Source: Hericium rajendrae (taxonomy: Eukaryota > Basidiomycota > Agaricomycetes > Russulales > Hericiaceae). From it: a DNA stretch of 64,000 nt. The stretch covers positions 3,286,001-3,350,000 of the forward strand of contig CM065880.1 of the NCBI GenBank assembly GCA_033439255.1, written 5' to 3'. Positions within the stretch are counted from its first letter, which is position 1. Every line of letters starts with the position of its first letter. A program made the translations under genes and the position numbers. Below are positions 2,818-48,376 of this stretch, in pieces. The notes below the pieces were generated by a model, which had not been told where the DNA came from, did not search any database, and saw only the letters and a program-made list of their open reading frames with translations.

Positions 2818-3811
2818 CTAAGAACCTGAAACATGAACCCAACCTAGACCTCGAAGAACCCGACCCAACTCCTGAAGACGAGGATCACCCTGCCAGTCCA
2901 GAGGCGGGGCCTCGAGCTTGACCGAATTCGGAACCGACGGTGAGGATGAGATGATGACCGAGGGACGATCGGCGCGAAGACCTGCGGGATGACGTCGTGT
3001 GATGACCGGCCCAGAAATCGGAACGGATGAGCAAGGCTGATGTGAGGAACGGGCAGGCCTCACATGAAATCGCCATGCACGCCGCTTCAAGGAGTCGAAC
3101 GGCCATGCAGAAGGTGACCTGAGAATGGAAAAATCACGCGTAGGGGGTATAAGCAGTGGTGCGCTGGAAACGGGAAGTAGAGAAGCATCATCGGCCCATG
3201 AAAATGATGTTGCATTATGGGACATTGAAATTTCATTAGTCGTCGTTGAGGACTTGCAAGACATACGATTATCGGCATAGGACTTTGAAAAGAATGTACA
3301 GGGTGCACGACTGGGTGCCAAGTCGCATGCGTCGGTGCAGGGAAATGGATGCGTTGGGGCTTCGGATTGCATGCTGGCATTGACGTGCGCGTATGCGGAG
3401 GTATCGAGAGATATGCGAGTGTCGATGTGCGATGTGAGCGGAGACGAGATTTCGTACTGTACGCCAGCATGAATGCGCGCCTTCGGGGAGAGCAGGCAGG
3501 CTGGGACGTCTGACTGGACACCGGCCTCGATACGCCGGGTCGCGAGGTCAGTGCGCGGGGTCGTATTGCATGCGGCAGCGGGCAGCGAGAGCGTCGAGGC
3601 GTGGCCGTCTGTCTGGACGTCTGCATCGATGCGCGAGCGAGTGGGGATCGTGTCGATGGAAAGGGGATTGGGAGGCCCGGTGTCGTTCACCTGGACGGTC
3701 GCGTCGACTCGAGTATGCGTACTCACCTCGGTACGCGTGATCTCCAGCCCTTCTCGGTACCCATGCCACCGTCCCTGCTCATACCCATCCTTCCATGCCT
3801 GCTCCCTCTGG
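2818..3811 (-). pseudogene. LTR-element ORF, C-terminal half (split by KDZ transposon)
   Basis: The minus-strand frame enters through the target-duplication copy at 3811-3802 and ends at stop 2818. It begins with a charged segment of the type EQGRWHGYREG, followed by repeated motifs of the form (D/E/N)A-x-(V/M)Q-(T/S/V)-x spaced about every 35 residues. It closes with a DPRLQELGRVLRGLGW-type tail. The N-terminal half is at 18604-17819. Joining the halves across one copy of the 10-bp duplication keeps frame exactly (262 plus 328 codons including stop). The protein is of unknown function, and its family recurs in mushroom genomes. The frame track extends to 3939 only because it reads into the transposon end. 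Confidence 0.75.
3802..3811. repeat. 10-bp target duplication of KDZ transposon, left copy
   Basis: CTCCCTCTGG, repeated exactly at 17819-17828 on the other side of the 14-kb insertion. In the interrupted minus-strand ORF both copies read in the same frame as Gln-Arg-Glu, and one copy restores continuity. Zisupton-type elements are reported to make duplications of about 8 bp, so 10 bp is close but not identical. Confidence 0.8.
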
Positions 3812-4001
3812 CACCAGTACCAGTACCCACAAAATAATGCGGGCCGGAACCACCCCGCAACAGCATTGCAATTCCTGCGGCTGCAGCCGCAGCTAGCCGA
3901 GGACCTCCTGCCGCTCGCAAAATAATGCTCCGTCTCCACGATGCATTATTTTGCGAGCCTGGGACTTTCTGGCTCGCTTCCACAACCTCCAGAAAAACAT
4001 A
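3812..4001 (+). repeat. left terminal inverted repeat of KDZ transposon
   Basis: It matches the reverse complement of 17641-17818 in collinear blocks. These are CAAAATAATG then GGGCCGGAA near the tip, a 22-bp identical block at 3869-3890 centred on GCGGCTGCAGCCGC, an inner hairpin with AATAATGC arms, and CCTCCAGAAAAA-CATA at 3986-4001. Blocks are separated by substitutions and small indels. The outermost 15-18 bases agree only loosely. Confidence 0.82.
3913..3958. repeat. hairpin within left terminal repeat
   Basis: A 16-bp perfect inverted repeat: arm GCTCGCAAAATAATGC at 3913-3928 and its reverse complement at 3943-3958, with a 14-nt loop. The corresponding place in the right terminal repeat also holds a 16-bp hairpin with the same AAAATAATGC core (17696-17735). 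That suggests a conserved structural or transposase-binding role. Confidence 0.8.
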
Positions 4002-4009
4002 CCGCACCA

Positions 4010-4790
4010 CCTCCCCTCGGCAATTCTGCGCGCCCGCCCTCGGCAATTCTGCGCACCCGCCCTCGGCAATTCTGCGCGCCCGCCCTCGGCAATTCTGCGC
4101 GCCCGCCCTCGGCAATTCTGCGCGCCCGCCCTCGGCAAATGCTCCGCGCCTCCCCTCGGCAATGCTCCGCGCCCGCCCTCGCCACCGCGCCACCGCGCAT
4201 GCACCCTCGCTGCCGCGCCGCCACCGTATGCGCCACCGCCGCATGCGCCCTCGCTGCCGCGCCACCTCGCATGCGCCCTTGCTGCCGCGCCGCCACCGTA
4301 TGCGCCACCGCTGCATGCGCCCTCGCCGCCGCGCCACCACCGCCGCCACCGCCGCATGCGCCCTCGCTGCCGCGCCACCTCGCATGCGCCCTTGCTGCCG
4401 CGCCGCCACCGTATGCGCCACCGCCGCATGCGCCCTCGCCGCCGCGCCACCACCGCCGCCACCGCCGCATGCGCCCTCGCTGCCGCGCCACCTCGCATGC
4501 GCCCTTGCTGCCGCGCCGCCACCGTATGCACCACCGCCGCATGCGCCCTCGCCGCCATGCCGCCACCGCCGCCACCGCCGCATGCGCCCTCGCTGCCGTG
4601 CCGCCACCGTATGCGCCACCGCCGCATGCGCCCTCGTCGCCGCGCCGCCACCACCGCCACCGCCGCATGCGCCCTCACCGCCGCGCCGCCACCGTATGCG
4701 CCACCGCCGCATGCGCCCTCGCCGCCGCGCCGCCACCACCGCCACCGCTGCATGCGCCCTCACTGCGACGGCACATGCCCTTGCCCGCAG
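4010..4790. repeat. left subterminal GC-rich tandem arrays
   Basis: Bases 4015-4140 carry about six copies of a 22-23 bp unit containing CGGCAATTCTGCGCGCCCGC. Bases 4190-4790 carry interleaved longer repeats built from CGCCACCGTATGCGCCACCG and CATGCGCCCTCGC. Long frames here are open on both strands and are compositional. The region contains CTCGGCAATGCTC, whose reverse complement GAGCATTGCCGAG occurs at the inner end of the right array, so the arrays appear mirrored like the terminal repeats. Confidence 0.75.
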
Positions 4791-4996
4791 CACCGGCCCG
4801 GGCACTCATCTGCAGCACTTCATCTGTGCTCTCATCAGCCGCATCTGCCACCGGAACCACTGCACCGAGTCATCGACCCACTGTGCACATGACCAGAACT
4901 GCTGCGCACTAACCCATTCCTGGAACTCCCCTCGATGCTGTATCACAGCTCAGAAGAAACTCCGACTCACCTACCGGGATGAACCAATCACGTGTT

Positions 4997-5077
4997 CATG
5001 CGCTATCTGATGCATCGCCAACCGGAGGGTCTTAGAGAGTCCAACTACACAGCGGAACGTGCATCAGATAGCGCATG
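4997..5077. repeat. 18-bp perfect inverted repeat, 45-nt loop
   Basis: CATGCGCTATCTGATGCA at 4997-5014 and its exact reverse complement at 5060-5077. It lies just beyond the 3' end of the minus-strand orphan gene, so it could form an RNA hairpin at transcript end. It might also be an internal boundary inside the transposon. Nothing else is recognisable between 4800 and 5210. Confidence 0.75.
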
Positions 5078-5213
5078 TACCTGTCAACAATCCTTCTAAG
5101 GTGGGTGATGCCACATTCATTACATAACAGCTGGAGTCTTTGACGACTCCAGCAAATTGCATTGATCCAAGAACGATAGATAAGATTGACGCGCCGAGAT
5201 ACCGTGTATGAAG

Positions 5214-7836
5214 TCATAGAGATGGGGGAAGTGGTAAGGACCTGGACAGAATCAAGAAAGCAAGATTCTGGCACAACATCAGCCCCTTCGCGAACGCTTG
5301 ACAGCACCTGTGTCAATGGAATCGCTACTTACAAAATGAGCAAGTAAGCTACAACATACAAGGCGATCACATACCTAGGTGCCGCCCTTTTCTTCCCTTT
5401 ATCTCCACCACCAACCACCACATTGTGCTCGACCCCCATTGCCACAAACACCGCCTTCGTGTCGGAGACCGCATTTAGCCAGTCGCATTGTACGTTGTCC
5501 GGCAAGTCCTGGATCCGCTTCCTCCACAACGCGAGGTAAGCCATGACACTGAGGATCCCATTCTTGCCGAACTTGGAGAGCTTAGTCCAGTCGTGGGCTG
5601 CGGTGATTGATGTCCCAGCCCCAGTACGGTCAGCAAGGCGGTCGCTCGGTTGGAGATTGTCCCACCACTGCCAAAAGCCGGTTGGCAGTAGATCCAGCTG
5701 GAAGGACTTGCCGTTGACAAACTTGCTGTAGAACTTATGATAGACGCGGTCCCATTGTACCCAAAGACGTATGAGCTCCGGGCGACCGTTGGTAGGGAGT
5801 ACACCATCTGAAGTCTGCACAACATATCAATAGCTGACGGTGAGCGAGGCACGAAGAGAACTCACCGGGAACCCCTTCGAACGCAGCAAATCAACGTACG
5901 CCGTGACACAGTCCACCCAAGCCTCCTCACTGCCCACCTGACTGAAGAAGAACACGGCTTCCTGTAGCCATTTCGGCCACTCGTCGTCGTCGACGCGGAT
6001 TGAAGCCAAAGCAGATGACGGTATGGTACGAGGAACACCCGCAGAGCTCTTGCTGGTCGAAGCGACATGGGGAGGACGTGCAGGATGTGGGACGGGTGGG
6101 TTTCTCGGACTATCGGCATCGGATTGTGATGGACGATTGGAGGGGGGGTGCACCTTCGCGATCTGCATGTTCGCAGACGCCGTCGACGCCCCATGTCTGC
6201 CGACCTCCGAGCCATTCCCGCGTTCCTCCACTGACGCGTTCACATGCGCACTGGAAGGGGTGTCGTAGATCGGCTCCGGCGTCAGTCAGTTCACGGTCCG
6301 GCAAGTTCGGCGGGGAGTGGACCATGGAGGCGGATGCAGAGGCTTTGGAAACAGACGTGGCTGCCAAAGTAGACGAGTGGGTCACTTCTGCGGATGTTGT
6401 AAAAGAATGATGACTGGAGAGGGTGGTAGTGGCAGCCGCCGCCGCTGCGGATGAAGGCGACGACGTGGACGCGTTGGCCCACGTCTCGCTAGAAGTCGGC
6501 TTCAAAGGGGAGGTGGCTCGTGCTTCGGCCGTCGACGATGAAGAAGTAGCATTCGCAGAAGCATTCGCAGTCAATGTCGTGATATCGGGGGACGGAGAAG
6601 AGGGCATCGTGCTGGTAGGGACAGTGGATGATGATGGTTGCGGATTAGATGAGACTTCCGGCAAAGCCCGTTGTGCGCAAACCTCAGGTGCTATATATGG
6701 AAATATCGTTAATTAGGAAGTGAAAAAGCGCCCGAAACAAAAGAAAACTCACGAAATACTTTGGTCGCAAATCGGACATGCGCAGCTGCTGCTGCGTCGA
6801 AACCAGGCTTATCGTACTCAGCCCACGTCTGCCGCACGATGCCCCCCGTTAAACTGGAATGAATCACAAGTGATCCAATCGCTCCGCGGTCTTGCGGAAT
6901 CGGACCAGACAGAAGGAGACAGGCTACCATCCCATATTGTCTCGAGACGTTGTCCACGACCGGTTGCAGATGCTGGAGCACCATACTATGGGCCCTGATG
7001 CAAAAGTCGTTAGTGAGGTGACGCGGAAGGCGAGATCAACCAAAAAAAAACGTACTTGTGATACTCCTCGGCCGTCTTCGGATGTTGCAACAGCTGTTTG
7101 TAATCCGCCATCGCAGCCTTGTAGTTCGCCTCGACTATCGCGCGGATCTCTTCCTTGATTTCCTCGCTTTCGAGCCCGTACTTCTGCCGTGTTAATTCAG
7201 TTTGAAACTTGAACTTGTCCACAGGGATCGTGCCGGCCGATCTGGCCTCATTGACGATTGCCGCATATTGCTCGTTGACGGAGGCTTTAACGCGGGAGTC
7301 ATAGTATTTCGTCGAATAAACTTGCCATGCCGCCTCTCTCCTCGGCGGTGCCAGGGGGGCGTCAACAATGAACGACTCCTCCACGCTGTTTTCCGGTGCC
7401 TTTACCAGCTTTTTGCCATGATGGCGGAACCAATTGCCGATTTTCTAGAAGTCCCACATATCAGGAATAAACTTTTCATTCAGACAGGAAAAATGGAACC
7501 CACCTCGCGGACCTCAGTATACGTCGCCTGACGTGCCTTGATCGTGTCCTCGTCCAACTCATCCGTGTTGCCAATAAAGGCCATGGTGTCGAGATTTGTC
7601 TCCGGTGGGTCATCGAGCTCAACAGCCGCGTCTTCCTCCAAAGGGAGCACCCAGCCGTACTTGAGAAACCAGAGCTTGGTGGTGCGGGTATAGAAATCGC
7701 CTCGATCGCGGGCTTGGTGCCACTTCATAAGGCGAGAGTCGAGGAATACATATTTAGTCCCTTTTGCCCAGGAGTTTCGTCCCGGTCCGCGCCTGGTGAT
7801 CGTGTTATTGGACGCCTTCTTAGACTTTCTGGCCAT
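5214..7836 (-). CDS. KDZ-transposon cargo: 752-aa orphan family protein
   Basis: Seven-exon model: 7836-7504, 7444-7056, 6994-6753, 6690-6295, 6230-5866, 5814-5375, 5307-5214. All introns are GT-AG (51-67 nt) and the frame is kept to 753 codons with stop. The last exon is the least certain. The N-terminal domain has the pattern WAKGTKYVFLDS...FYTRTTKLWFLKYGW (about residues 23-63), then a NWFRHH segment. A middle region resembles the TGG/GG-rich segment of the family, a Ser/Thr/Ala-rich linker lies at about 325-450, and a C-terminal Trp-rich domain (EWPKWLQEA, WQWWDNLQP, GKNGIL) follows. I recognise this layout from a large, uncharacterised Agaricomycete family and know no function for it. 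It shares strand with the next gene and lies inside the terminal repeats, so it is carried as cargo. Confidence 0.72.
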
Positions 7837-8082
7837 GAGTTGACGGTGAGGCAGAGGAAGTGGGTGATCTGGTCAGATGAGCTGGCACGAGTACGCGAAT
7901 CCATCAGCTCTGTCTTCGGCAATTGTTCGACAATTCGGCACTTCCCGGTCATTGTCAAGATCTTAGATTAGATTGCATCCACTGCAGATCAATGCATTGT
8001 CAACAAAAAAGTAACACAGAACGCAAAGCAACAAGTAAAGCAACGATAACAGACATAGCGACTACGGAAATCAAGAAATATT

Positions 8083-9817
8083 CTAAATTTGCCTCGCCCT
8101 TCTCACCAAACCTTCCTGGAGACGCAAAGCCATCCACTGCACAGCTTGTCGATGAGTCGGGAAACTGATGTGCTTGTGGCCAGATACTCCGTGTATCTGA
8201 CTCGAACATTCTTCCCTTGTTTATGTCAGTACAGTGCCATAACACGGATAGAAAGTGAATATCTCACCAGGTTGGGTATATACCTGGATTTAGACCGCAG
8301 GCAACAGCATAGAATTTTTTGGACTCAAACGGTTCCATCCCGGAGCAGCCAGACAAGCTCTGAAACGTGTCATAGGTCCAGGTGCTTTGGCGGTAGGCCG
8401 CATTGGGAGTCGGGTAGTACGTGAAGTGTGGAGAGTTCGACTGGTAAGTTGGGGGAGGCGACGACGATGCAGCACCTGGATCCTGACCGAAAGCTGAGCC
8501 CGGGCGAGGAGGAGACGGTGAATGCGTGTGCTGGGAGTCGGGTGCAGGTCCAGCATTGGGGTCTGGGGCAGACGTTGCACCAGTGCGTGCAGCTGGCAAC
8601 TCGTGCAGGTCTGCAGCAGGCACTGCACCTGTATCTCCTCGGAGCACTCCACTGGTGTATGGAGTGGTTGCAGAACGAGTCTCTCGGGCAGGCGCATAAC
8701 GAGTCTCCTGGGCGGGCGTGGAACGAGTCTCCTGGGCGGGCGTGGAACGAGTCTCCTGGGCGGGCGCGGAGCGAGTCTCCTGGGTGGGCGCGGAGCGAGT
8801 CTCTGGCGCAGGCGGTACACCGATATCGGGGTGGGGTGAGGATCTGACGCGGCCACGGGAGGGCGGAACAGGAAGGGAATGAGACGTGCGGTTTAGTGGA
8901 AATGAACCTGGGACATGCGGGGTATCTGTTTCTGAGGCAGACGTGGACTCGAGACCGAGACCGGACAACTGAGCAGGAAGGGAATACAAAGATGGTGTCG
9001 GGTGACGAGCGGGTGACCGAGATACAGATGCCGATGAAACAGCAGTGCGAGGAATGGAGGGCGATGCTGCAACTGATAGAGGAGGGATGGTAGACTTGCC
9101 ATGAGCTGCAGATGCCTGGACATGAGGCGGCACTGAAGATGCAGGGCGAGGCCCTTTCCGAATTGGCGCGACCGAAGGAGAGGCCATCGCGGAGACATTC
9201 AGGGACGGCACAGGCTTCATGCTGCGAGACGAGGCAGACGAGCGGCTGGGAGCGGTCGCGTATTCCGATTCAGTGGCTGTATCGGTGGCATCGGAGGGGT
9301 AATAGCCCCGGAGAGAGTTAGAACTGGCCTCTTTGGAAGGAGTAACGTCGGATTCGGTGACGACGTCGCTCCAGTCATCATCGTGAAGCTCTTGCACGAG
9401 GCCTCGATGGCGGGCAGCAAGAAGATTGTCGTAGGCAGCCGCCTGTGTGTCGTAGGTATCGTAGAAGGCCTGCGGGATGCCACGTGTCATGCCCTCCGCC
9501 TCCCAACTATGGAGACCTTTGTCAAATTGGGAACTCCGAAAGAGGGATAAAGCACTCACCGATGCGCAAAAACGCCTACCTTCCGGCCCACAAAGACCGC
9601 AAACCACTTCTGTCCAACTGCTTGTGGAAGCACTCCATTTTGAGACCGTTTGAAGTCGGAATCTAAGCTCGCTCGTGCCATGTTGGATGCTGTGACGTGG
9701 AAGCTATCGTCGGAGATGGAAGGTGCTAGCAAAAATAAAGTGCTCACCCAAGTCAGAGGTCGGACTGCCCGGGACGCCGACCATGTCCCACATGTCGTCG
9801 TCCTCAGCTGCAACCAT
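8083..9817 (-). CDS. KDZ-transposon cargo: protein with two RNase H1-N/viroplasmin-type domains
   Basis: Four exons: 9817-9748, 9689-9560, 9506-8268, 8215-8083 (introns 58, 53, 52 nt, GT-AG), 523 aa. Residues about 50-100 read KWFAVFVGRKVGVF...RWEAEGMTRGIPQAFYDTY. Residues about 462-515 read KFYAVACGLNPGIYPTWEEC...VHG/VSG...SFPTHRQA. Both match the small domain at the N terminus of RNase H1 and in caulimovirus viroplasmin, which in RNase H1 binds RNA/DNA hybrids. The end of each domain appears only after splicing, which supports the model. Between them is a Ser/Pro-rich linker with about six 8-residue repeats (APAQETRS type, near 8690-8820). No RNase H catalytic domain is seen. The first Met could also lie upstream. 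Confidence 0.75.
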
Positions 9818-11122
9818 GTGCCCTTTGCGACAACGGGGGAAAGGAGCGAGACAGAAACGTGCCTCTACTGGGGTCTCACGACGACACGCCACAACCGGGT
9901 CCGAGCGAAGGTGCTTCTTCGGATCTATCCGAAACAATGCGATAAGGAGTACGCGAATGATAAGACGATAAGGACTCATGACTATGACGACACAAGCCCA
10001 TCCCGTTGTCCGAGATTCCCTCTTACTAGATGCTTTTTTTCCGGTACTTACCTGTCATTAGCATTCAGAAGTAAGTACTCCAATATTTCTGATAGAATCC
10101 GTAACGTTCATGAGTGTCTCTTCCGACATTTAGCTGGAAATTCAACCCATATCGTCAAGATCGACATTTTGACGATGATCCGGAGCTGCATTGTAGGACG
10201 AATGATACATAAAGTACGTCGTAACAGTCACTGGATATGACATTCGTCAACTGAATCGCTTTTCGTCGCTGTATAGCATATCGGAAGGCAGTCCTCGTCG
10301 TGTTTTCGCGGTGGTTTTCGGCTTTGCAACCGTACTATGTCCCTGTCTCCACTTCTCATTTACCACTATCTACCACATATCTGTATGCTGAACTACATTC
10401 AATAATCAATGTTTTCGGAGCTAGATTCATGTGCCGGAGTTTGGTAGATACAACGATCGAGAAGTACTTGAATAACGGGTGAACGAGTAAAGTGTGATAA
10501 CGAAGCCTAACTTACAGTTTATAACATACAGACTCCCAAGATGATTGTCACTTTTTGTATTATAAGGTTAGATGAGTAACTCGTGTTACGCACTATGAAA
10601 TTTACACTAATATACTAGCGGGGGTACGAATTGAGAGCTGTACGGCTACTGGTGTGTATACATGTGCTTCATGCGTGCACTTGCAGCTCGAGTAACCCAA
10701 CCCAACACAAGTGGCTGCACGCGCGTGCCACAAACACCGGCCTTCTGCAACCGCCACCTCGACCGTGCTTCAAGTTCGACCACCACCTCTACCACGTTTC
10801 ATCGTCGTCATTCTTTTCTACTTCCGTTCTTTTTATCGTGTCTATTTCCACCTCAGTCTTGGTCTCGATCGCAGGGTCAGTCACCCGTTCGGTGTCCACT
10901 CGGTACGTCCTTTCTTTCTGCCCGCTTCAGTTCGTGTTGTGTAGCGTGCCTCTCCAGGCCCTCCGCACGAACGGGGCTTCACTCTTTCTGACCATAAGCT
11001 TACATGTTCTATTACCTACCCAGCTTAGCCTCAACGACGAGGCGCAAAGGTTCATGGTGGGGAAGGTGCGTTTCTGCCGTCCACCTATAGATTACAACTG
11101 ATTTCTTTTACTGTATACGCGT
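9818..11122. promoter_or_regulatory. 1.3-kb divergent intergenic region in the transposon
   Basis: It separates the viroplasmin-domain gene (-) from the TET/JBP gene (+). Only weak, short open frames are present. A pyrimidine-rich stretch around 10800-10870 could belong to the 5' leader of the oxygenase gene. No TATA element or known RNA was recognised. Confidence 0.3.
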
Positions 11123-12716
11123 ATGCTTCAGACGCGCTCAGGGCGTGAATTCTCCGCGTACATAACCACCACGATCCCTGTTCCCGACTTCGACTTAGCC
11201 GCATTTGTTCAAGCCGGGGTTGGAATCCAGGACAGTTTCGTGCCCGCAGCCGACGACTCGCACCCGCAGCTGTTGGACCTTGACCCACCTAGAGCATCCC
11301 ATCCGGAAGTTCCTCCACCACCTCCGTCTCCCGTTCCGCTGTCTCAGCACCACTCATCATCCGCCAACATCTCCAACGGTGACGCGCCATGCCCTCAAGG
11401 CGAAGGCGCAGCTGCTCCCTTCTTCGCACAAAGAGAATATCAGAGACAGCGTCGCATCCGCCGTCGTCAGGAGACCAAGGAGCGATATGGTCCCCTCGGC
11501 TGTGTCACTAGGTCTTTGGTTGCAAAGTTTGCCTCACCATCCCTGTGCGTCGTGCCTGATGACGCACGCCAACTGCCTGTTGCTGAAGGCGCATTCGTTG
11601 CGAAATGCGACCCTCGGCAGCACCCCTTGAAGCAAATATACCCGCTGAACGAATTATTGGGTGGGTTAAACTTCCAATATAAACAGTGGGATGGACGGTA
11701 TGTGACTAGTCCCTGTAGGCCGCGCTTTGTAGCACTAATTCTCCTGCAGAGGAAATGGGGCCGTTGTTGATAGGATGGGGCGTCTTATTGTCGGCATGCC
11801 TGCGCAGCCGTCCGACCCAACGTGGTCATTCCTCATGCAGGATGGTTGCAAGGCGATGTGCGAAACAGAACACTGCAGTTTCTCGAAGGCGCAGCATGAT
11901 CACGGGCGCGGCCGATTTCCTTCATTGACGACTGGATTTTCGTATGGCGGCGGCCAACAGGTATGTGTATTTCATGCCCTTGGGACCAATTTTGAACAGA
12001 TTTTGCAGCAGCCAATGAATTTTTCTCATACTTCGAAGCAGCACATCAGCGCGATCCAGTGTTTGCGCACACACCCGTGTTTTGTCCGCCTAGCAGGTCA
12101 CAACAATTGTGCGTATACGTCACTCACAATCTACGATCTAATGACAAGTCCGGCCACAGGTGCCTTCTCTATCTATGCGCCAAAACTTTTTCGGCATTAT
12201 AATGAAATTGTTGACGCAATACAGGCATCCGACCCGAGCCTGGAGAAACCGTTCAGCAACAGCGTATTTCCTGCCGCCACCTTCAACGTTGGAAGCCAGA
12301 CTGTCACGAAGAAACACCGGGACTCGTTTAACGTCCCTTATGGGTGGTGTGCGATCACCGCGCTCAGTGATTATGACCACACTAAAGGCGGCCACTTGTA
12401 CCTGTGGGAGCTAAAACTAGTCATTGAATTTCCGCCCGGAAGCACAGTGTTTATCCCGTCTGCTGTCATCAGCCATGGGAATACCCCGATTTCCGATGGA
12501 GAGGTTAGACACTCTTTCACTCAATTCTGTGCTGGTGGCCTGCTGCGTTGGAAATTGTACGGCTTTCAAAGCGAGGAGGACATGCAGATGAGAGATCCGG
12601 CCCTCGCTTTAAAGGTGGACTCCGGCCGATTTACCAGATGGTACGAGGGTTTGGGGCTGTTCTCAAAGATTGACGAATTATATGCGGATAACGAACCGTG
12701 GCTCTTCCCTAAGTAA
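11123..12716 (+). CDS. TET/JBP-family 2-oxoglutarate/Fe(II) DNA-base oxygenase
   Basis: Four exons: 11123-11697, 11750-11960, 12009-12096, 12160-12716, 476 aa. By family it would oxidise 5-methylcytosine or thymine in DNA using Fe(II) and 2-oxoglutarate in the nucleus. The N terminus (LQTRSGREFS) and a Pro/Ser-rich stretch precede the conserved part, which starts near residue 180 (QWDGRGNG, DRMGRLIVGMP, then GFSYGGGQ). The double-stranded beta-helix core spans about 300-430. It keeps the metal ligands H344, D346 and H397 (HRD and ISHGN motifs) and the 2-oxoglutarate arginine R408 (VRHSFTQ), with YGWCAITAL and GGHLYLWEL between them. All catalytic positions I can identify are present and no frame break is seen. 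It lies immediately upstream of the transposase on the same strand, the pairing known from mushroom KDZ elements. Confidence 0.88.
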
Positions 12717-12780
12717 TATACAGTACGAGTCTCGTATACCCTGGTAGTAACTTACGCTAATCCCTTTTGCATAATAACAA

Positions 12781-12853
12781 CGCGGTCACGTTACCGATCA
12801 ACAAGAGCAAGCGCTTAACAGCGCGATCACGTTACCGATCAACAAGAGCAAGC
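12781..12853. repeat. 32-bp direct repeat between oxygenase and transposase
   Basis: CGCG(G/A)TCACGTTACCGATCA and the following 12 bases occur at 12781-12812 and 12822-12853, with one mismatch and a 41-bp period. It fills most of the 187-bp gap between the two genes and could hold a transposase- or factor-binding site. Confidence 0.8.
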
Positions 12854-12903
12854 ACTGGCTAGGTGTGACATGCTTTCGTCTGTCCTATGCACCTGCTCTA
12901 GCC

Positions 12904-15900
12904 ATGAATACACGACGCTTCAACGCCCCGCTTGCCCAACACCAATTCAAACGCACTCGTTTCAAGCCGACCACGGACTCTTCCACCTCTATTCCTTACC
13001 ATATTCCTAATGCCGCGCCTGTTACCCAACTCTCCGCATCTTCCGACAGTCGTCGCCTCGTCACCCGACAAACACCCATTCCTATTGAGGACACACAGGC
13101 ATCTAGCAGTGGAGGACAGGGTGTCGAAGAGGATCTGGGCACCGGCGAGCTCGACGGTGTGGACCGGATTGAGGGCTTGAATGAGGACCGTTCTGCCGCA
13201 GAACCGGGCTTGACTGCGAGTAAGTCCAACTCGGTGAGTGGGCTTTTATTTTTGTCTAAGATTCGAATATTACTCACTTTCTACCAGGACTATCCAATCG
13301 ACACGTGGAGGGCGTACTGCGACGAGTATCTCCACGAATCAATTCGATTGGAAGGGCGGGGGATGTTTCTATCCCAAACGATGTGTCCAGATTGCCGTCT
13401 GGAAGAGGGATCCTTCCGTTGTAGGGAGTGCATTACCTTCGACCTTGTATGCAAGAAGTGTATGGCTCGTCGGCATCGACGTACGCCATTACATGTTATC
13501 GAGGTATGTACTTTCATCTATCTGAAGATCTGGCATTGACAAGTATCTAGAAATGGAACGGCACCTTTTTCGAACGAACCACACTGAAAGCTGTCGGTCT
13601 CGTTGTCCAACTCGGTCACCTTCCGGGCGTGCCGTGTCACTTTCCAGAGCCGGGACCGAGCGACTTCGTCATCGTCCATGGAAACGGCATCCACCACATC
13701 TCAATTAACTTCTGCGGCTGTCAGCTGGCGAATCCTATCCCACGACGAGTGCAGCTTATGCGAGCTGCTTGGTGGCCTGCTACGCCAAAGGAGCCATCAT
13801 CTGCAGCAACATTCTCCGTTCTGCGCCAGTTCCATATGATGACATTAGAAGGCAAAACGAACGCGACGGACTTTTACAATGCGATTGCCCTCCAAACGGA
13901 CAATACGGGCCTGAAACCCCCTCCAGTGAGTGCCTACGTGCATCGGTTTTTGTGATCATAACTCATTTACGTGCAGGATCGACTTGCTGCCTTCATGAAT
14001 ATGGTTCGTGAATGGCGTTACATCAAGGGAATGAAGCGCGCTGGGCGTGGCCACGAGCCTGGCAAGATTGTCGACACCAAGCCAGGCGAAGCTGCGGTTC
14101 GATGTCCAGTATGTCCAAGACCGTCGGTCAATATGCCGGAGACGTTAGTGGGTGTTCCGGAGGAGGATCGGTATGTCAGCCTTGTCAGTATAGCTTCCTC
14201 AGGTTAACAGAGTATTTGTAGATTCATGTACCAACAGGTGTTCTTGATAGATGCAAATTTCCGTATGAAGAACCGCTATCGAGCTAGTCGTCATACCGAC
14301 GTTAGCTTGACTGGAAACTCCGCGTATTTCATCGACCAGAACATCTACCAGAAATATATTCTCAACGCTGCTAATCAGGATGATGTACGTGCTTTTGGCT
14401 ACCAGTGGTATTATGGTATTCAACTCTATTCCATAGATAAGTACCTGTACTGGATTTGCCGCCCTCGCAAATGCCAATACCAAACGCTCGAAGGGTATGA
14501 GGTCGACGGGTGTAGGGGCATGTACATGTCGACACGAGTTCTGGTTGCCGAACGGGGTCGGGGACTTACAAAAGGGTGAACGGTGCGTCATGAATGCTTT
14601 GCTTATATTGGACCGCGTTTCTGATATTGGCGTAGATATTCAAATATGGATTTCATCTTCTTCAGTGCACACTCCCATCACCGGAACAAGAACGGTATCG
14701 CGTCTTACAACATCGCGTGCCAGTGGTGCACCGGGCTAGCTGATCGTCTATGGGGCTTACCCGACGCGATACGTCCGACCAGCCTTCCGGATCTCCAATT
14801 TGCTGTGCCCAAATTTCACCTCCCAGCCCACGGCCCTGCATGTCAAGCACCGTATTCTCTCAACTTCATGGTCGGTGCAGGAAGGACCGATGGAGAGGGC
14901 GTGGAGAGAAACTGGGCGCACTTGAATGGTGCTGCCGCCAGCACAAAGGAGATGGGGCCCGGTGCTCGCCAAGATACCCTCAACGATCATTGTGGCCATG
15001 CAAACTGGAGGAAGACCATGAATCTAGGTAAGTAGACTACAGTACAGTTTGGACATATGCTGATCTAAATCTATGCTAGGCCGCTCATTGCTGAAACGCA
15101 TGGTCTCTGCTGTATCGGAGGCTATCCGGCACAGCAACATTTTGCAAGAATTCAACCGTGTTGTGGAGCGGGAGAAACCTGGTGCAGTCGCAAAGTGGGA
15201 GCAGATGGTAGTGGCCTGGGAAGAGGACCATTCGAAGCCGTGTCCGTATAAGCTTCCAGAGTCTAGTGAGCCATCCTCGTCTTCTCTATAGCAGGGTACT
15301 GACCTTCTTTCCCAGGTTTCGATATAGCGACCATCCATCAACAGCTAGCAGCAGAAGACGACATAGGCCGCCAACGCGGTGGTGGGAGAGATTCCGCAGT
15401 CAATCCTACGTCGTTGGGGTTCGGCGAATTTGTGGCCTTGGCTATGGATATTGAGGAGACACAGTGAGTTATGATACTTCAGTATCTGGTGAAGTGCGGG
15501 GCTAATCATCAACGTGAAGACGTCTTCTTGTGAGGGACTGCACGAAAATCAAGGATGGGGCTACGGTGTCCCAAAATGCGTCGCTTCAAGAACGACGCAC
15601 CAGATTGAGCAAAAAGATTCAGCGTTTTTCCTCCCACGAGAAGCGTCTGTTCCCAACGCTGTCCCCCGGCACTGAGCTAAATGCTGATCACTCAGAACTC
15701 ACCTCCCTTTCCTTACCTTCCTCTGTCATGGACCCGCACCGAACGGCATATTATCCGCAAGAGATGATCGACGCGGAGACCAAGCTTCGGCTTGCAGAGG
15801 CTTCGGAGGCCTTGGACAAAGTACGGTATCATCTCCGGGTTTCGTCATATGTGCACCGCTATAAGATGAGTAATGTGGTTGGACAAGGCCTGAATACGCG

Positions 15901-16719
15901 AGCACGTACTACCCTGAATGCGGTGATCGCGAAGGCTTGGGCGGCAGTGGGAAGGTACCGCCATGCACGGGCTTGCTATGTGACGCTTGCTGGTGAGGAC
16001 GGAGAATGGGCTCGAACCTTCCAGCCCCTAAAGGAGGAGGATGTCCGTGGCCTCAGCGATACCACTCTCAAGAAACTAGAGGCGGAAGAGGAAGGCGACA
16101 TTGATGTTGAGGCATTGGTGGCTGGGGAAGGGAGTGAGGGACGCCGTACGGTTTCTTGGATATGGTATGGGGCGGGGGTGGGGACCGGGGCTGGTATCCA
16201 GGCAAGAGAAGACCGTACCTTGCATGAAGGTAAGGGCCTCCTCATCTACAAGATCCATGTACCATTACTAAAACATCTTCGTCTGCAGCTGTTCGAGTTG
16301 AATGGGCTAAGGCTCGTGCGCGAGCTGCTCGCTGGCGTGAGGAAGTACGGTGGCTTCGGCAGGAGACCGCATTCGTCATCGGAACATTCCACTTCGAGGT
16401 GCAGCAGTGGTGCCGCCGTGCGGGTGACGCGTCATCGTCAGATCTGCAGCTCGCAGACGGCCTCACCGCGTACGCCCTGGAGCATGCGCACCTTTACCGG
16501 CAGTTAATCTCGTCCTTCTCCACCTCATGGAGTGTTGCTCTAGGAGAGGCTGCAAAGTACTTGGGTGCTCCTCTGGCAGAGCATGAAGACGTCGTCTCCC
16601 GGCTCGACTCTATCCGACTCCCAGCATCTCGAGAACTCGACAGAGTCTACTTCAATGATGAGGAAGACACGGACCGGTTCATTCACCAAGACAACAGTGA
16701 TGACGACGACGACGACTAA
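12904..16719 (+). CDS. KDZ transposase (CxC2-KDZ type)
   Basis: Eleven exons: 12904-13233, 13288-13503, 13551-13925, 13977-14170, 14222-14384, 14437-14582, 14636-15027, 15080-15265, 15316-15463, 15520-16229, 16289-16719. This gives 1096 aa with every intron GT-AG and 47-59 nt. It catalyses element excision and integration. An N-terminal cysteine cluster (CPDC, CREC, CKKC then HRRTPLHVIE, residues about 135-182) is the CxC2 zinc-binding region, followed by GNGIHHISINFCGC. The transposase core shows IDANFRMK (about 381), GVGACTCRHEFWLPNGVGDLQKGER (about 449-474), SYNIACQW (about 497), PKFHLPAH and GRTDGEGVERNWAHLN (about 565). The last two regions carry conserved acidic residues of the RNase H-like fold. 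The C terminus is helical and ends in an Asp run. The frame is fully open, so the enzyme may be functional. Confidence 0.9.
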
Positions 16720-16899
16720 GTCGTTCCATAGCTGGTGCCGGTACGGTGTATCTCGGTAGGCTTTTGGTTCCAGACATACATCCATCTGTGTAGCTGGTCT
16801 TTCACAGACCCTCCTGGTGGGTGTGTGCCTGGGACCATCTTGCTGATCCGTGATGGAAGGAGGCCTGAAGCAGTACCGGAGGCAGAGGGGATGACGGGC

Positions 16900-17590
16900 A
16901 GCAGCGGAGAGCAGTGCGCACAAGCGCTGGCAGCAGCGGTGGTGAGTGATGCCCAGCAGCATTGCAGAGCGGTGGCCGGGAGCAGTGCGCAGTGGCGGCG
17001 GGCAACAGCGGCGGCCAGCATTGCCGAGCGGCGGAGGAGCAGTGCGCGTAGGAGTGGCAGCAGCAGCGGCGGGCAGCAGCATGCACAAGCGCCGGTGGCA
17101 ACGGCGGTGGTGGTGGCGCGCAGCAGCAGCGCGCAGCAGTGCGCATAAGCGCTGGCAGCAGCAGCGGCGGCGGCGGCGGCGGCGCGCAACTGCACGCACA
17201 AGCGCTGGCGGGCAGCGGCGGCGGTGGCGGCGGGCGGCAGCCGCGCGCACAAGCGCTGGCGGGCAGCAGCGGCAGCGGTGGCGCGCAACCGCACGCACAA
17301 GCGCTGGCAGGCAGCGGCGGCGGCGGCGGCGGGCGGCAGCCGCGCGCACAAGCGCTGGCGGGCAGCAGCGGCGGCGGTGGCGCGCAACTGCACGCACAAG
17401 CGCTGGCGGGCAGCGGCGGCGGCGGCGGCGGGCGGCAGCCGTGCGCACAAGCACTGGCGGGCAGCAGCGGTGGCGGCGGGCAGCAGCCGCGCGCACAAGC
17501 GCTGGCGGGCAGCAGCGGTGGCGGCGGGCGGCAGCCGCGCGCACAAGCGCTGGCGGGCAGCAGCGGCGGGGAGCATTGCCGAGCAGTGAG
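16900..17590. repeat. right subterminal GC-rich tandem array
   Basis: Repeats of about 36-40 bp and longer supra-units built from GCGCACAAGCGCTGGCGGGC and GGCAGCAGCGGCGGC. They read as Ala/Gly/Gln/Arg-rich peptides in several frames on both strands. It begins about 180 bp after the transposase stop and ends with GAGCATTGCCGAG, the reverse complement of a sequence in the left array. Confidence 0.75.
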
Positions 17591-17640
17591 CGGGTATTCC
17601 CGATGGTGTCGGCAATCAGGGTAGTATTTACTGCATAGAA

Positions 17641-17818
17641 TATGTTTTTTCTGGAGGTTTTGGAATATCATGACCTGCCCAGGATTTCTGGGCAGACAAA
17701 ATAATGCGGCCTACATATGGGCCGCATTATTTTGTGCACGGAGGCGGCTGCAGCCGCAGGAATTGGAATGGGTTTGCAGCGTGATTCCGGCCCCATTATT
17801 TTGGGGCAACTGGGACGC
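17641..17818 (-). repeat. right terminal inverted repeat of KDZ transposon
   Basis: Reverse-complement counterpart of 3812-4001: TATG-TTTTTCTGGAGG at 17641-17657, the hairpin at 17696-17735, the identical 22-bp block at 17744-17765 and CATTATTTTG near 17795-17804. A second small hairpin (CTGCCCAG...CTGGGCAG, 17677-17694) lies inside it and has no obvious equivalent on the left. Confidence 0.82.
17696..17735. repeat. hairpin within right terminal repeat
   Basis: Arm ACAAAATAATGCGGCC at 17696-17711 and its exact reverse complement at 17720-17735 around an 8-nt loop. It has the same AAAATAATGC core as the left hairpin, although the flanking bases differ, so the fold seems to be conserved more than the sequence. 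Confidence 0.85.
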
Positions 17819-17828
17819 CTCCCTCTGG
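17819..17828. repeat. 10-bp target duplication of KDZ transposon, right copy
   Basis: CTCCCTCTGG, identical to 3802-3811. The bases on either side differ from those at the left copy, so the duplication is exactly 10 bp. Confidence 0.8.
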
Positions 17829-18604
17829 TGCTCCTCGATCCTCGCTTCTCTTCTCGCTTCTTTCCTCCCATCCCTCCGGCCTTCCTCGCGGATGTCTTCA
17901 AGTAGACCTTCGTCGATCTCGTGGATCGACTTGGCCAGGCGCGGGGGCGTGTTCGTCGGCTGAACGTTGCACGATGCTGCGAGTTGGGCCTTGCGTCGCT
18001 CGAGCTTCTGCGCGTTCTCCACGATCTGCGCCAGAAGGTCATTGTCGATTTCATCGAGCGATGTGGCCCATCGTGTGGGCGCGGAACCGTCATGGCTGTC
18101 GTAGGCGCGGACACGGGGTTCCGTGAACTCGAAATCGTGCGTTGGGCACGCGATCAGTAAGTCGGGAGGTCCTGCGCGGTTGATAGCGGCCGCGAGATCC
18201 GCAGCGGCTCCTGCTGTGGTAGCTGGGGCGGAGAACACGGGAGTGGGGGTGCGTGGTGCGGTGCGGGTGTTCACCGTGGGTGCGGGCTCGTGGGGCTTGG
18301 AACATGCGTGGGCTGCATGCATTTGCGGCGTTGCTATGGCAACGGGTGTGGCTGCGTGTGCATTGGTGGTTGCTGGCTCGCAAACGAGCTCGGTGTCGAC
18401 GGTGGAATGTGTGGGGGACGCAGCACGAGGCGTCTGAGTTGCGGTTGCCACGTGGTTCGCGCGAGTTTGCTGCATGTTCGTGGGGGATTCCCTCACGGCT
18501 GGTGCGGGTGCGTTGTCGCATTCGTTGCAAGTGAGCGAAGATGCGGGGCTGCTACTGGTAGCTGCTGCTGCTGCTCGTTGGGCGGCGGAGCGTCTCTTGC
18601 CCAT
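17819..18604 (-). pseudogene. LTR-element ORF, N-terminal half (split by KDZ transposon)
   Basis: The start is chosen at 18604 because the protein then opens MGKRRSAAQRAAA, an N terminus I recognise from many mushroom hypothetical proteins. The upstream extension is hydrophobic and looks like leader sequence. Visible features are an Ala/Thr/Pro-rich region with a CNECDN motif, then two related segments (SLDEIDNDLLAQIVENA and SIHEIDEGLLEDIREEG) followed by an Arg/Glu-rich helix. The frame continues in phase at 3801 after one copy of the 10-bp duplication, for 589 aa in all. Expression of the whole protein is blocked by the 14-kb insertion. The function is unknown. As the only ORF between the LTRs it may act like a Gag. 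Confidence 0.75.
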
Positions 18605-18894: not shown

Positions 18895-19046
18895 TGGAGT
18901 GGCCTAAGGGCGAGAGCTATGCCCAAGGTGATGACAGTGCAGACAAGGACTACTCTACATGAGGTGAGACTAGCTATGGACATGCTGACTAAGCCTCGGC
19001 ATCCTCCGAACCTCTGCATGCAGGGAGCCTCCGGCTCCCTAGTCCA
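18895..19046 (-). repeat. 152-bp LTR (5' LTR of minus-strand element)
   Basis: Identical by eye to 2619-2770. The adjoining minus-strand sequence at 18894-18860 starts TCTTGGTGATGAGAG, where TGG at the third base could pair with a tRNA CCA end (primer-binding site). The tRNA match was not verified. Confidence 0.8.
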
Positions 19047-19050
19047 GCGT

Positions 19051-25589: not shown

Positions 25590-26012
25590 TGTCACGGATC
25601 GCTCCATTTCTCTCCGCCTTCTTCTCTGCCATCAAGGCATCGCGTCGGTCATGTGCTCCAGCAGCCCCATCACATGTTCACTTCCTCACATGACCTGGGG
25701 CTATCCTTCACCCATGCCCTTGTTCCCCTTTGGGACATCCTATTGTTCTCCCTCCCATTGTTCTCCTTTTGGCCACCATTGTTCTCACTCTATTGTTCGA
25801 CCCGTTATGGTGTCCATTGTTCTTTTCCCATTGTCGTCCCAGTACTTATAGGCTCCCTGTCGCTCGCCTATTTCCCTAGATTGTCCATTTCGTCTGTACC
25901 GTACTGTACCTCCAATACAGGTCACTGCGCTGCTAGTCGCTCTCTGCTCTCTCGCTCCCATCATCGCTGGTGACTTGGGTGGTTCTCTGCTGTCTACGAC
26001 CGAGTCTTGACA
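25590..26012 (+). repeat. gypsy 5' LTR (423 bp)
   Basis: Begins TGTCACGGATC and ends CGAGTCTTGACA. It matches 32254-32676 without visible difference. It contains repeated CATTGTTC words and CAGTACTTATAGG near 25840 as a possible core promoter. Confidence 0.92.
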
Positions 26013-26013
26013 C

Positions 26014-27237
26014 CTGGACAATCTCTCATACACCCACCTCACCTCCCTACTATCGCCCATCATACCTCTCTTCTTTGAACCCTTCACCGCCGACATCTTC
26101 ACCGAATCTCGACATCCATTCCATCAACCTCATCTCCCCTTCCCCATCGCCAACACCATCGAGGGCAGTGCACTCATTCCCCTCCTCCGCTATTGTGCTG
26201 TGAAGCGTTGGGAAGCCGAAGGAGTTTGGTTTCGATTGAGATCGTGGAAACCACGTGCAGGTGCTATCTCCATTGCCTTATACGTTCGAATTCGAGTCGC
26301 TTTTGACGTCGACTTGCAAGAATTCACGTTTGGTGCCTCGGACATCGCCTACCACTGTCGCCAACCCAACCGAGGATCCCCTGCGATCATCCTGCCATCG
26401 ACCTCATTCCCCTTTTGCACACTAGGTTTCTTCACCCCAGAACCCTCGCCTGAGCCTGTGTGGGCCAGAGAACGCCTCGGCCACCGATTCCTCAGAACCC
26501 CGTACTCCACCACCTTGTACCCTCGTGCCCTTGGACGTCGTCCAGTTGCGGCAGACTTCCTGTAGGTTGTCACCATTGATTCCACCGACCCCCGCTTCCA
26601 GACCACTGCACCCTTCCCACTCGGGATCTTCGAGTCACTTGGGGACTACCACATTTACACCCTTGCTGGCATCGCCCGGATCCACTTTTCTCACCAAGAC
26701 GCTGCTATCCGCCAGTGGTACTTCACTGAGCGTGAAGACTTCCCCTACCTCGAACTCGTCGACTTCGACGTTGCCAGAGAAGAACACCACCGCCTACACC
26801 CAGCCACTCCACCGCTCCCCACCGTCGCCCCTCCTAGTATCGACTCCCCTCCTGCACGCACCGAACCCCTCTTTGTACCAACAGGTATCATCTTCAACGC
26901 CGTTACCAGGAAGTACTACGCATACCGTTCCAACTCTCGACGCCTAGTCGTTGGCTGGAGACCAAACCTAGTAGAAGGAAGAGATCAGTGGTTTTGGCAG
27001 GCCAGTAGCGTTTTCATCACTGAACCTGAACTCGCTCTCTCTCATCAAGTCCTAGAAGCCCGCGAGCAAGAGCGAGTTACCCGGCTCGCAGTCCTCCGCT
27101 CACCGCTACCCCCTCGCATCCCAACCCCGATACCAATCCCCTCACCCGCTCCACCTGTTACCACTGTTACATCCACATCCACCGTCAACGTCAAACCGAT
27201 CATCGCCCCAGCTCCCCCTGTTCAGCCACCCGACGAC
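26014..27237 (+). CDS. gypsy leader frame preceding gag, no ATG, one TAG
   Basis: The gag reading frame is open from the end of the 5' LTR (26014) to 26562, stops at TAG 26563-26565, and is open again from 26566 to the gag ATG at 27238. No in-frame ATG occurs upstream of 27238. The two segments read as protein (WEAEGVWFRLRSWKPR; FPLGIFESLGDYHIYTLAGIARIHF; RDQWFWQASSVF), so this is probably a real N-terminal extension or separate product. It would need a spliced or non-AUG start, or have been lost by mutation. The function is unknown. Confidence 0.45.
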
Positions 27238-28227
27238 ATGTCCAACCCCGAGATTGGCATCAAACCTGCTCCCTTTGAGGGAGATCGTTCCAAGTCCAAG
27301 GAGTTCCAGTTGCGTATTCGCTTATTCCTTCGCGCCAACTCTACCCGGTATAAAGATGATACCGCCCAGATCTCCCTCTTCCTCGACCTCTGCCAGGGCC
27401 CTATTGCCGGCCAGTGGGCCACCCAGCGTGTCGAGGAGATCCTTGAGGATGACGATCTTGTGGCTGCAAACACATCTCCAGCCCACGTCCCTCGCTATGC
27501 CAACCTCGCTGCCCTTCGAACTCGCTTCAATTTGGACTTCTCCCCCCTTGACGACTCCAAGGACGCCTCCCATGCCATCCAGACCCTCCAGATGGGTACG
27601 CGCCCGGTAGTCGACTACATCACCGAGTTCGAGTCCTTCGCTCCTCGCACCGGCTACAACGATGTGGCCCTGATCGATTGGTTCCTGCGTGGCCTCAACA
27701 GCGCTTTGCGGGATGATTGCCAGCGCAGCTACCCCACGCCCACCACCCTGGATGAGTGGAAGGCGAGGGCCCGTGACAGGAATGCTGCCTACCTCATGCG
27801 CACCCGGTTCCAGAGTCCCCGCCCTACAACTGGGCGCACCCCGGTGAGCACTCGCTCCCCTCAGTCCACATCTACTGGCCGATCCCGCACAGTTGCTGCT
27901 ACAAGTGCCCCACTGCCCAAACTCTTGGAGCCTGACCGTGAGCGTCTCAGGCGTGAGGGTGGTTGCTTTCGCTGCCGCCAGAAGGGCCATGGCTTCCGCG
28001 ACTGCCCCCTCAATGCCGACTCCAACCCCCGTGCCCCAATCCCTCGTGTCCGAGCGCTAGAAACCGGCTCTGCCCCGGGGGTAGCTCCAGAAGATGCAGC
28101 CGCCGCCCTCGCTGTCCCCGCCATCACCAGGTCCATCGCCGACTTATCGTCGCAATTGAAGGACTTGAGCGAGGAAGAGAGGGAAGAGGCAAAGGCTGCA
28201 TTAAAGGATATGGTTGAGGGTTTTTAA
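27238..28227 (+). CDS. gag: gypsy Gag
   Basis: A 329-aa capsid-like protein. The retrotransposon Gag domain spans about residues 10-180 (KEFQLRIRLFLRANS, GPIAGQWA, RPVVDYITEFESFA, NDVALIDWFLRGLN). One CCHC zinc knuckle lies at about residue 243 (CFRCRQKGHGFRDC). The C terminus is helical and acidic and ends GGT TTT TAA at 28219-28227. It packages element RNA. Pol begins in the -1 frame at the stop codon. Confidence 0.9.
   Translation: MSNPEIGIKPAPFEGDRSKSKEFQLRIRLFLRANSTRYKDDTAQISLFLDLCQGPIAGQWATQRVEEILEDDDLVAANTSPAHVPRYANLAALRTRFNLDFSPLDDSKDASHAIQTLQMGTRPVVDYITEFESFAPRTGYNDVALIDWFLRGLNSALRDDCQRSYPTPTTLDEWKARARDRNAAYLMRTRFQSPRPTTGRTPVSTRSPQSTSTGRSRTVAATSAPLPKLLEPDRERLRREGGCFRCRQKGHGFRDCPLNADSNPRAPIPRVRALETGSAPGVAPEDAAAALAVPAITRSIADLSSQLKDLSEEEREEAKAALKDMVEGF
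28218..28227 (+). promoter_or_regulatory. candidate -1 ribosomal frameshift site gag/pol
   Basis: GGGTTTT at 28218-28224 fits the X-XXY-YYZ slippery pattern in the gag frame and is followed at once by the gag stop TAA (28225-28227). Slipping back one base joins the frame that runs without a stop into pol (28251 onward). No downstream pseudoknot was worked out. Confidence 0.55.
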
Positions 28228-28250
28228 AGCGCCCCCTGGTCACGTCGTCC

Positions 28251-32357: not shown

Positions 32358-32676
32358 CCTGGGGCTATCCTTCACCCATGCCCTTGTTCCCCTTTGGGAC
32401 ATCCTATTGTTCTCCCTCCCATTGTTCTCCTTTTGGCCACCATTGTTCTCACTCTATTGTTCGACCCGTTATGGTGTCCATTGTTCTTTTCCCATTGTCG
32501 TCCCAGTACTTATAGGCTCCCTGTCGCTCGCCTATTTCCCTAGATTGTCCATTTCGTCTGTACCGTACTGTACCTCCAATACAGGTCACTGCGCTGCTAG
32601 TCGCTCTCTGCTCTCTCGCTCCCATCATCGCTGGTGACTTGGGTGGTTCTCTGCTGTCTACGACCGAGTCTTGACA
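32254..32676 (+). repeat. gypsy 3' LTR (423 bp)
   Basis: Matches 25590-26012 over its whole length. It is followed by the CTATC target duplication at 32677-32681. The pol stop codon is inside it at 32355-32357. Confidence 0.92.
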
Positions 32677-32699
32677 CTATCCAGTTTCAGTTCACGCAA

Positions 32700-46740: not shown

Positions 46741-46742
46741 CA

Positions 46743-48335: not shown

Positions 48336-48370
48336 GTTTGCTGAGGCTTCACGGCGCACACTCGAGCAGC

Positions 48371-48376
48371 TTTATA
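48371..48376 (-). promoter_or_regulatory. TATA box of paralogue A
   Basis: TATAAA on the minus strand within GGTATAAAGCTGCT, about 36 nt before the ATG at 48335. The same block precedes paralogue B. Confidence 0.6.

Follow-up and report, generated by a model that had tools for sequence, protein, structure and literature searches.

The 64,000-nucleotide stretch of the Hericium rajendrae genome that was analyzed here (the window) contains a 14,010-bp element, copy A (positions 3812 to 17821), that is very probably a cut-and-paste DNA transposon. It would have moved recently, and it belongs to the KDZ superfamily, with a Kyakuja-like character. This reading, made from sequence comparison, draws on bounded ends, target-site duplications (TSDs), the presence of several copies, the gene content, a pre-insertion open reading frame (ORF) whose paralogues are uninterrupted, and post-insertion decay that is mostly restricted to CpG sites.

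The left terminal region (3812 to 4001, first bases CACCAGT) and the right terminal region (17641 to 17821, last bases GACGCCTC) form an imperfect inverted repeat, which bears out the inverted termini reported in a preliminary description of this DNA. Arms of 50 nt (3841-3890/17744-17793, 86%) and 26 nt (3817-3842/17791-17816, 81%) were aligned, with a local alignment score of 86 versus a maximum of 34 among 2000 shuffles, and a terminal inverted repeat (TIR) alignment was obtained for all seven elements of this kind found in the genome. G+C-rich subterminal tandem arrays lie at 4014 to 4775 on the left (repeat families D1 and D4) and at 16898 to 17586 on the right (families D2 and D3). Because CTC occurs at the right end of all seven elements, the right end is placed at 17821, 3 bp further out than position 17818, where the preliminary description had closed an otherwise clearly bounded element. 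The exact 10-bp direct repeat that it had noted outside the ends exists (CTCCCTCTGG, at 3802-3811 and 17819-17828), but on the comparison of all seven ends it consists of 3 bp that belong to the element and a target duplication of 7 bp, CCTCTGG (3805 to 3811 and 17822 to 17828). A 10-bp TSD was ruled out by the constant right-terminal CTC and by the left flanks, which in the other six elements end in non-matching bases.

When the element and one repeat copy are removed, the joined flanks form a single minus-strand frame of 589 codons that starts with an ATG at 18604 and ends at 2818, with its 5' part at 17829 to 18604 and its 3' part at 2818 to 3811; the 262 plus 328 codons given earlier agree with this length once the stop is counted. 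Discontinuity of this ORF at other loci had been named as evidence against an insertion, and the two full-length paralogues (C1:4163320-4165134 and C2:1805249-1807072) are instead continuous across the junction. Since the interrupted ORF belongs to a dispersed repeat, the insertion is nested in another, older repeat, which is bounded by 153-bp direct repeats (2619 to 2771 and 18895 to 19047) that are 100% identical. A single-copy host gene was ruled out as the target, the ORF being a dispersed family and its copy in the window being flanked by these 153-bp repeats.

Four genes were modeled between the ends, with exons predicted from sequence and no transcripts behind them. Gene Y (5329 to 7836, minus strand; exons 7836-7504, 7444-7056, 6994-6753, 6690-5866, and 5814-5329) would encode 756 amino acids in copy C and is frameshifted in copy A, and gene X (8083 to 9681, minus strand; exons 9681-9560, 9506-8268, and 8215-8083) would encode 497 amino acids, each end of the protein carrying an RNase H1 N-terminal domain. 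On the plus strand, gene T (11054 to 12716, five exons, 482 amino acids) is a predicted TET/JBP-type dioxygenase, and gene Z (12904 to 16719, eleven exons, 1096 amino acids) is a predicted KDZ transposase with a CxC2 cluster (PF18758, E 2.7e-63 over 1-217/217; PF18803 [CxC2], E 1.9e-39). The proposed linkage of a KDZ transposon to a TET/JBP-type gene is supported. As to the two further genes said to be of unknown role, both lie inside the ends, while X can now be assigned its two RNase H1 N-terminal domains. Copy A is not the apparently intact copy it had been taken for, because its Y gene carries a 4-bp insertion, relative to both other long copies, that leads to a stop at codon 515; none of the three long copies has all four frames open. 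All four genes were probably open in the ancestor, with single copies then decaying neutrally.

The X protein of copy C matched PF01693 in two stretches (E 6.9e-22; 77.9 bits versus a cut-off of 21). Across the genome, 30 PF01693 matches corresponded to 29 loci (each locus being entered once, with rows for minor exons left out; two of them, the C14 loci, are copies of one family), at least 19 of which have a KDZ or TET match no more than 20 kb away, a limit of our own choice. Excluding the lineage of copy A, the figure is at least 14 of 24, versus 6.5% of the genome lying within 20 kb of the KDZ/TET matches listed. These KDZ and TET loci are lower bounds (72 of 414 transposase candidates and 88 of 107 TET candidates were scored), and the remaining 10 of the 29 loci had no KDZ or TET within 20 kb among the matches listed. 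Y has relatives in Hericium alpestre and Auriscalpium vulgare. Both X and Y have the look of genes that belong to the element, not of chance cargo: X matches only KDZ loci in this genome, the two genes are neighbors in two other Russulales, and at least 14 of the 24 other RNase H1-N loci are near KDZ/TET.

KDZ transposases are reportedly linked to TET/JBP genes and to extra proteins that include a divergent HMG domain (Iyer et al. 2014, PNAS). Pfam gave no HMG match for Y, so an HMG identity was not confirmed. Structure models covering Y and X were poor (mean pLDDT 35.1 and 36.6), and the low-confidence model of Y (P0003) has three helices at 157-229; sequence searches of the PDB returned nothing useful for the 86-aa N-terminal piece of X or for a three-sequence Y profile. 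Two further candidates were set aside: a fusion of RNase H1-N to TET in other lineages, where at the one locus inspected (C14) the domain comes to its end within a separate ORF, ahead of the TET ORF, and a candidate X relative that would lie between the Y and T genes of the C8 family, where a motif resembles the domain but is without Pfam support.

A search of the genome with both ends, which had been suggested for finding other copies, recovered two more long copies (B and C) that are 98-99% identical and have different flanks, as well as four short elements (D, E, F, and G) with related ends. Sizes and ends were recorded for all four short elements, and inspection by eye of the reading frames of F and G recognized nothing. 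That the three long copies were produced by segmental duplication or gene conversion is extremely unlikely: A and B do lie ~27 kb apart on the same contig, and C, F, and G (3/7) are without TSDs, but blastn similarity breaks off at the element ends in the copy pairs compared, TSDs flank the other four of the seven elements (7 bp in A, B, and D; 8 bp in E), and a related empty site was located for short element E. It is likewise very unlikely that X and Y are host genes that happened to be trapped inside the element. Neither is required for transposition under any known rule, and Y has no Pfam family over the cut-off; against this, all 17 matches to X in the genome fall in KDZ loci (five loci) and none elsewhere, and at least 16 of the 17 Y entries (28 match rows, two entries coming from one element) have KDZ or TET no more than 20 kb away. 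The two genes also adjoin in H. alpestre (P0001) and, judged from a single predicted protein that matches both RNase H1-N and Y, in A. vulgare (P0002). Moreover, two diverged elements retain both X and Y, in unchanged order, with no TET among the matches listed, and X is therefore not bound to T.

CpG transitions are expected in methylated DNA, and such changes dominate the divergence of the long copies. Among differences confined to one long copy, 117 of 141 are C>T at CpG. In the four genes, synonymous, non-synonymous, and stop substitutions number 48/64/3, versus a neutral CpG expectation of 43.5/68.5/3.0 (P 0.68). The CpG bias was 0.85 both in the TET-bearing copies and in a KDZ pair with no TET nearby among the matches listed (only 13 differences in the latter), so no protection by TET in cis is visible. 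For comparison, a Gypsy pair that is 5.5% diverged, of an age not comparable to the KDZ copies, had 30% CpG transitions, and a 1.36-kb stretch common to two other loci (1.7% diverged) had 12 of 16. The long copies have begun to decay in the pattern expected of methylated DNA, although they carry TET.

Active, RIP-like repeat-directed hypermutation is a less probable source of these changes than the slow deamination of methylated CpG, with a real if minority chance of being correct. Counts give a C>T rate per CpG ~35-fold above that per other cytosine, and all 89 A-B differences are transitions, as such a process could produce; however, the base 5' of the changed CpG follows no clear preference (G 33, C 31, T 27, A 26), a single C>T precedes A, only ~2% of CpG cytosines have changed per copy, and the CpG content of the element is still 1.0 of expectation. 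T scores weakly against Tet_JBP (PF12851; 19.1 bits, below the cut-off of 34.9; E 0.00078), and in an ungapped register from the HxD motif it carries N355 and C361 at the positions of CcTet Gly331 and Asp337, the latter a residue required for 5mC oxidation in CcTet according to the text of PMC11040006. Loss of cytosine oxidation, with T kept for another role or inactive, nevertheless seems unlikely given the retained metal triad HxD...H and 2-oxoglutarate arginine (H350, D352, H403, and R414), the likeness of its Asn to hTet2 Asn1387, which is described in the same source as holding 5mC and blocking 6mA, and the recurrence of the Asn/Cys pair in other TETs of this genome (four of the eight loci examined, the other four not being matched by the pattern). 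A sequence search of the PDB found no solved structure for T.

We class copy A in the KDZ superfamily and as Kyakuja-like only, a placement by domains, ends, and TSD rather than by a transposase tree. It has the transposase core and Cys cluster, bounded ends, TIRs, and a TSD in the 4-8-bp range (4/7 elements) of the superfamily. Complete TET-bearing Kyakuja transposons of Agaricomycetes are reported in the text of Kojima 2025 (PMC12730594); TET-bearing elements from Russulales are among those described and possibly include relatives of the present family. These Kyakuja transposons share with copy A a KDZ transposase with a TET/JBP gene, a 7-bp TSD (here in A, B, and D), and a 5' CA terminus; the two Laccaria families described there have CA..TG termini and no TIRs, whereas ours has CA..TC and TIRs, and T departs from both the conserved Asp337 and the Gly/Ser331 (CcTet numbering) stated there for AG-type TETs. 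In Cryptococcus neoformans, KDZ1, KDZ2, and KDZ3 (~9-11 kb) were shown to move, and the text of PMC12810828 describes them as likewise bounded, with long TIRs (241, 139, and 169 bp) and TSDs of 8 bp (KDZ1) or 4-8 bp; their cluster is CxC1, in contrast to the CxC2 of Z. Bounded KDZ copies are thus already known as a kind, both with TET (PMC12730594) and as the Cryptococcus KDZ1-3 elements (PMC12810828). The main text of PMC12730594 uses none of the words HMG, RNase H, and viroplasmin, and that of PMC12810828 mentions TET only in the title of a reference and has neither dioxygenase nor viroplasmin. The long copy of helpo1.3 in Pleurotus ostreatus, 10.7 kb longer than other copies, has inverted repeats flanking capD and capF, with capE a PF01693 gene and capF an RNase-H-fold putative transposase; its extra genes are described as helitron-captured in the text of PMC4289320, and we infer that a KDZ-like element may there sit inside a helitron. 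An RNase H1-N gene as a recurrent KDZ component was not found in the literature searched, which did not cover Iyer et al. 2014.

In the mechanism we propose, Z would bind the termini and arrays, excise the element, and join it to the target at a cut staggered by 7 bp. T would oxidize 5-methylcytosine on element copies and thereby counter CpG-methylation silencing, a role that is somewhat more likely than not. X might bind RNA:DNA hybrids on transcribed copies through its two RNase H1-type hybrid-binding domains and support T or Z there, and Y, a putative helical protein, may be a DNA-binding partner of the kind that KDZ elements are said to have; these roles for X and Y are of low probability. 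Of low probability too is a general form, in which mushroom KDZ transposons would carry a recurrent anti-silencing module whose tandem RNase H1-type RNA:DNA-hybrid-binding protein directs a TET-type oxygenase to transcribed copies.

For one TET-bearing KDZ family, exact ends, TSDs, and a gene set are now given together with probable non-autonomous partners, and such ends, TSDs, and genes are what a transposition assay requires. RNase H1-N is a gene class added to KDZ elements. With TET-bearing copies still decaying at CpG, the proposal that transposons are shielded by TET against methylation becomes directly testable.

We are nearly certain that the window, C3:3286001-3350000 of a 46.8-Mb assembly of 19 contigs (G000), holds a well-bounded KDZ transposon, copy A, with four genes: a KDZ transposase (Z), a TET/JBP-type dioxygenase (T), a gene with two RNase H1-N domains (X) and a fourth gene (Y). 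The ORF that it interrupts, first read as 262 plus 328 codons, was indeed once continuous. The joined flanks form a single open frame of 589 codons from ATG; paralogues at C1:4163320-4165134 (65% identity) and C2:1805249-1807072 (57% identity) cross the junction with no stop, and the Hericium alpestre relative P0004 is likewise continuous over it. This ORF belongs to a dispersed family (at least 119 matches; the best 74 of 96 candidates were scored), and its window unit is bounded by identical 153-bp direct repeats (2619-2771 and 18895-19047), as paired repeats bound other family units (e.g., C2:1805048-1805200 and C2:1807372-1807524); the transposon is thus nested in an older repeat of ~2.4 kb. 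Family units sharing the ORF (18604-2818, minus strand) span ~2.3-3 kb with one ORF, several having paired repeats of ~153 bp. Units with these repeats are LTR-like, and no Pfam domain was found in two H. alpestre relatives of the ORF. The window also contains a Gypsy-type LTR retrotransposon, read from its ORFs (25590-32677; identical 424-bp LTRs), a 3.5-kb piece of which gave 40 scored matches at 93-100% identity, itself included; a duplicated pair ~6.1 kb apart (54972-57410 and 61175-63468; 88-90% identity); and a large inverted duplication (46645-48844 and 50885-53252; ~80% identity).

The termini of copy A are imperfect inverted repeats (local alignment score of 86 versus at most 34 in 2000 shuffles). 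Searching the whole genome with window 3812-4001 and 17641-17818 recovered two further long copies with the same ends, as the preliminary description had envisaged, B (C3:3249291-3263049, ~27 kb from copy A) and C (C4:950419-963841), and four short elements with related ends, D to G, of 3.3 to 7.2 kb on C2, C13, C9 and C14. The short elements (L030-L033) share 86-90% identity with copy A across the outer 80-103 bp and are probable non-autonomous partners. Two details of the preliminary description required correction. CTC directly follows the proposed right end, 17818, in 7/7 elements and, when it is counted, both ends measure 28 bp from the outermost base to the last base of the common AAAATAATG; the element therefore occupies 3812-17821 (14,010 bp), and the supposed 10-bp duplication shortens to CCTCTGG (7 bp). 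Target site duplications were also seen at copy B (TTCATGA), element D (GTTGCAG) and element E (GCACGCCC, 8 bp), the last with a related empty site in C14:659000-668999; comparing the flanks of all seven elements revealed none at C, F or G.

Copy A had also been described as apparently intact, which does not hold for Y, frameshifted by a 4-bp insertion; X, T and Z are open. In copy B only T is open, X having a stop, Y and Z being frameshifted and one Z splice donor gone, and copy C retains X, Y and Z, with a 98-bp deletion and two stop changes in T. None of the three long copies thus has four open genes together. The three-copy majority sequence has no premature stop in any of them (in X the flagged stop is simply the terminal one, the gene model running one codon beyond), so the shared ancestor of A, B and C probably had all four open. 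Later substitutions in these genes (48 synonymous, 64 non-synonymous and 3 stop, versus 43.5, 68.5 and 3.0 expected; P = 0.68) fit a neutral CpG expectation.

Proteins were derived from exon models and searched against Pfam. Z (1096 aa) matched PF18758 (E = 2.7e-63) and CxC2 (E = 1.9e-39), X (497 aa) has two stretches that match PF01693 (77.9 bits; cut-off, 21), T (482 aa) gave a weak Tet_JBP match of 19.1 bits, below the cut-off of 34.9, and Y, whose copy C product is 756 aa long, matched no Pfam family above its cut-off. H350, D352, H403 and R414 of T correspond to the CcTet triad plus arginine in the same order, with slightly different spacing. T differs from CcTet in having Asn in place of Gly331 and Cys in place of Asp337, a pair also found in 4 of 8 other TET loci examined (the remaining four were unmatched by the pattern used). 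In hTet2 the residue corresponding to Gly331, Asn1387, is reported to hold 5mC and block 6mA, and 5mC oxidation by CcTet is reported to need Asp337 (PMC11040006); because of the shared Asn, 5mC would be a likelier substrate of T than 6mA.

X has 17 matches in its own genome, all of them confined to five loci: A, B, C and a pair of diverged elements (C3:3263957-3272928 and C6:3002796-3019964) that preserve the order of Z, X and Y and have, among the matches listed, no TET between Z and X. In the C6 element, X is interrupted by a Gypsy element belonging to the family of window 25590-32677. The protein most similar to X comes from H. alpestre (85% identity), which points to a Hericium-like host within Russulales. 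One predicted protein of H. alpestre spans X into Y, and Auriscalpium vulgare P0002, also from Russulales, combines an RNase H1-N stretch with Y. Genome-wide, 19 of 29 PF01693 loci lie within 20 kb of KDZ or TET and 10 do not, among the matches listed; outside the copy A lineage the count is 14 of 24, with 6.5% of the genome covered (binomial 2e-11, the loci not all being independent). In 10 of these 14 loci TET is preceded on its own strand by the RNase H1-N gene, whereas X is divergent from T in copy A. Y is near KDZ or TET (≤20 kb) in 16 of 17 entries among the matches listed; the roles of X and Y are ones that we infer. Three near-identical KDZ elements (C8:2453500-2468500, C8:2473500-2488500 and C17:8000-23000) have Y on one side and, on the opposite strand, TET followed by KDZ; a candidate, unconfirmed motif resembling RNase H1-N lies between Y and TET.

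Kojima (2025) reports complete TET-containing Kyakuja elements in five orders, Russulales among them, with 7-bp TSDs and, in two Laccaria families, CA..TG ends without TIRs (PMC12730594), and mobile KDZ elements with TIRs of 139-241 bp are reported elsewhere (PMC12810828); bounded KDZ elements were thus already known. Among the texts covered, a literature search for RNase H1-N/viroplasmin with KDZ, TET or transposons returned one related report (PMC4289320). That Pleurotus helitron paper places capE (PF01693) and capF together in a stretch with inverted repeats, where we suspect a KDZ-like element.

Within 4850-16860, transitions account for 89/89 (A-B), 91/94 (A-C) and 101/104 (B-C) differences. 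Among the three copies there are 141 lone differences, of which C>T at CpG accounts for 117, T>C before G for 11 and other kinds for 13; element CpG content is 1.0 of expectation. By pairwise blastn, the CpG-transition share was 0.84-0.85 for A-B and A-C, 0.79 to 0.92 for recent pairs of other KDZ families (5 pairs from 4 families, two related), among them 0.85 on 13 differences for C2a-C2b, which has no nearby TET among the matches listed, and 0.75 on 16 differences for a 1.36-kb stretch shared by two other loci. Two short stretches beside element E gave 0.56 and 0.77, older pairs 0.26 to 0.32, and the identical LTRs compared had zero differences. Such a spectrum fits CpG methylation followed by deamination, and the genome has five match rows for a PF00145 methylase. 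Having TET has given these copies no visible protection against CpG decay.
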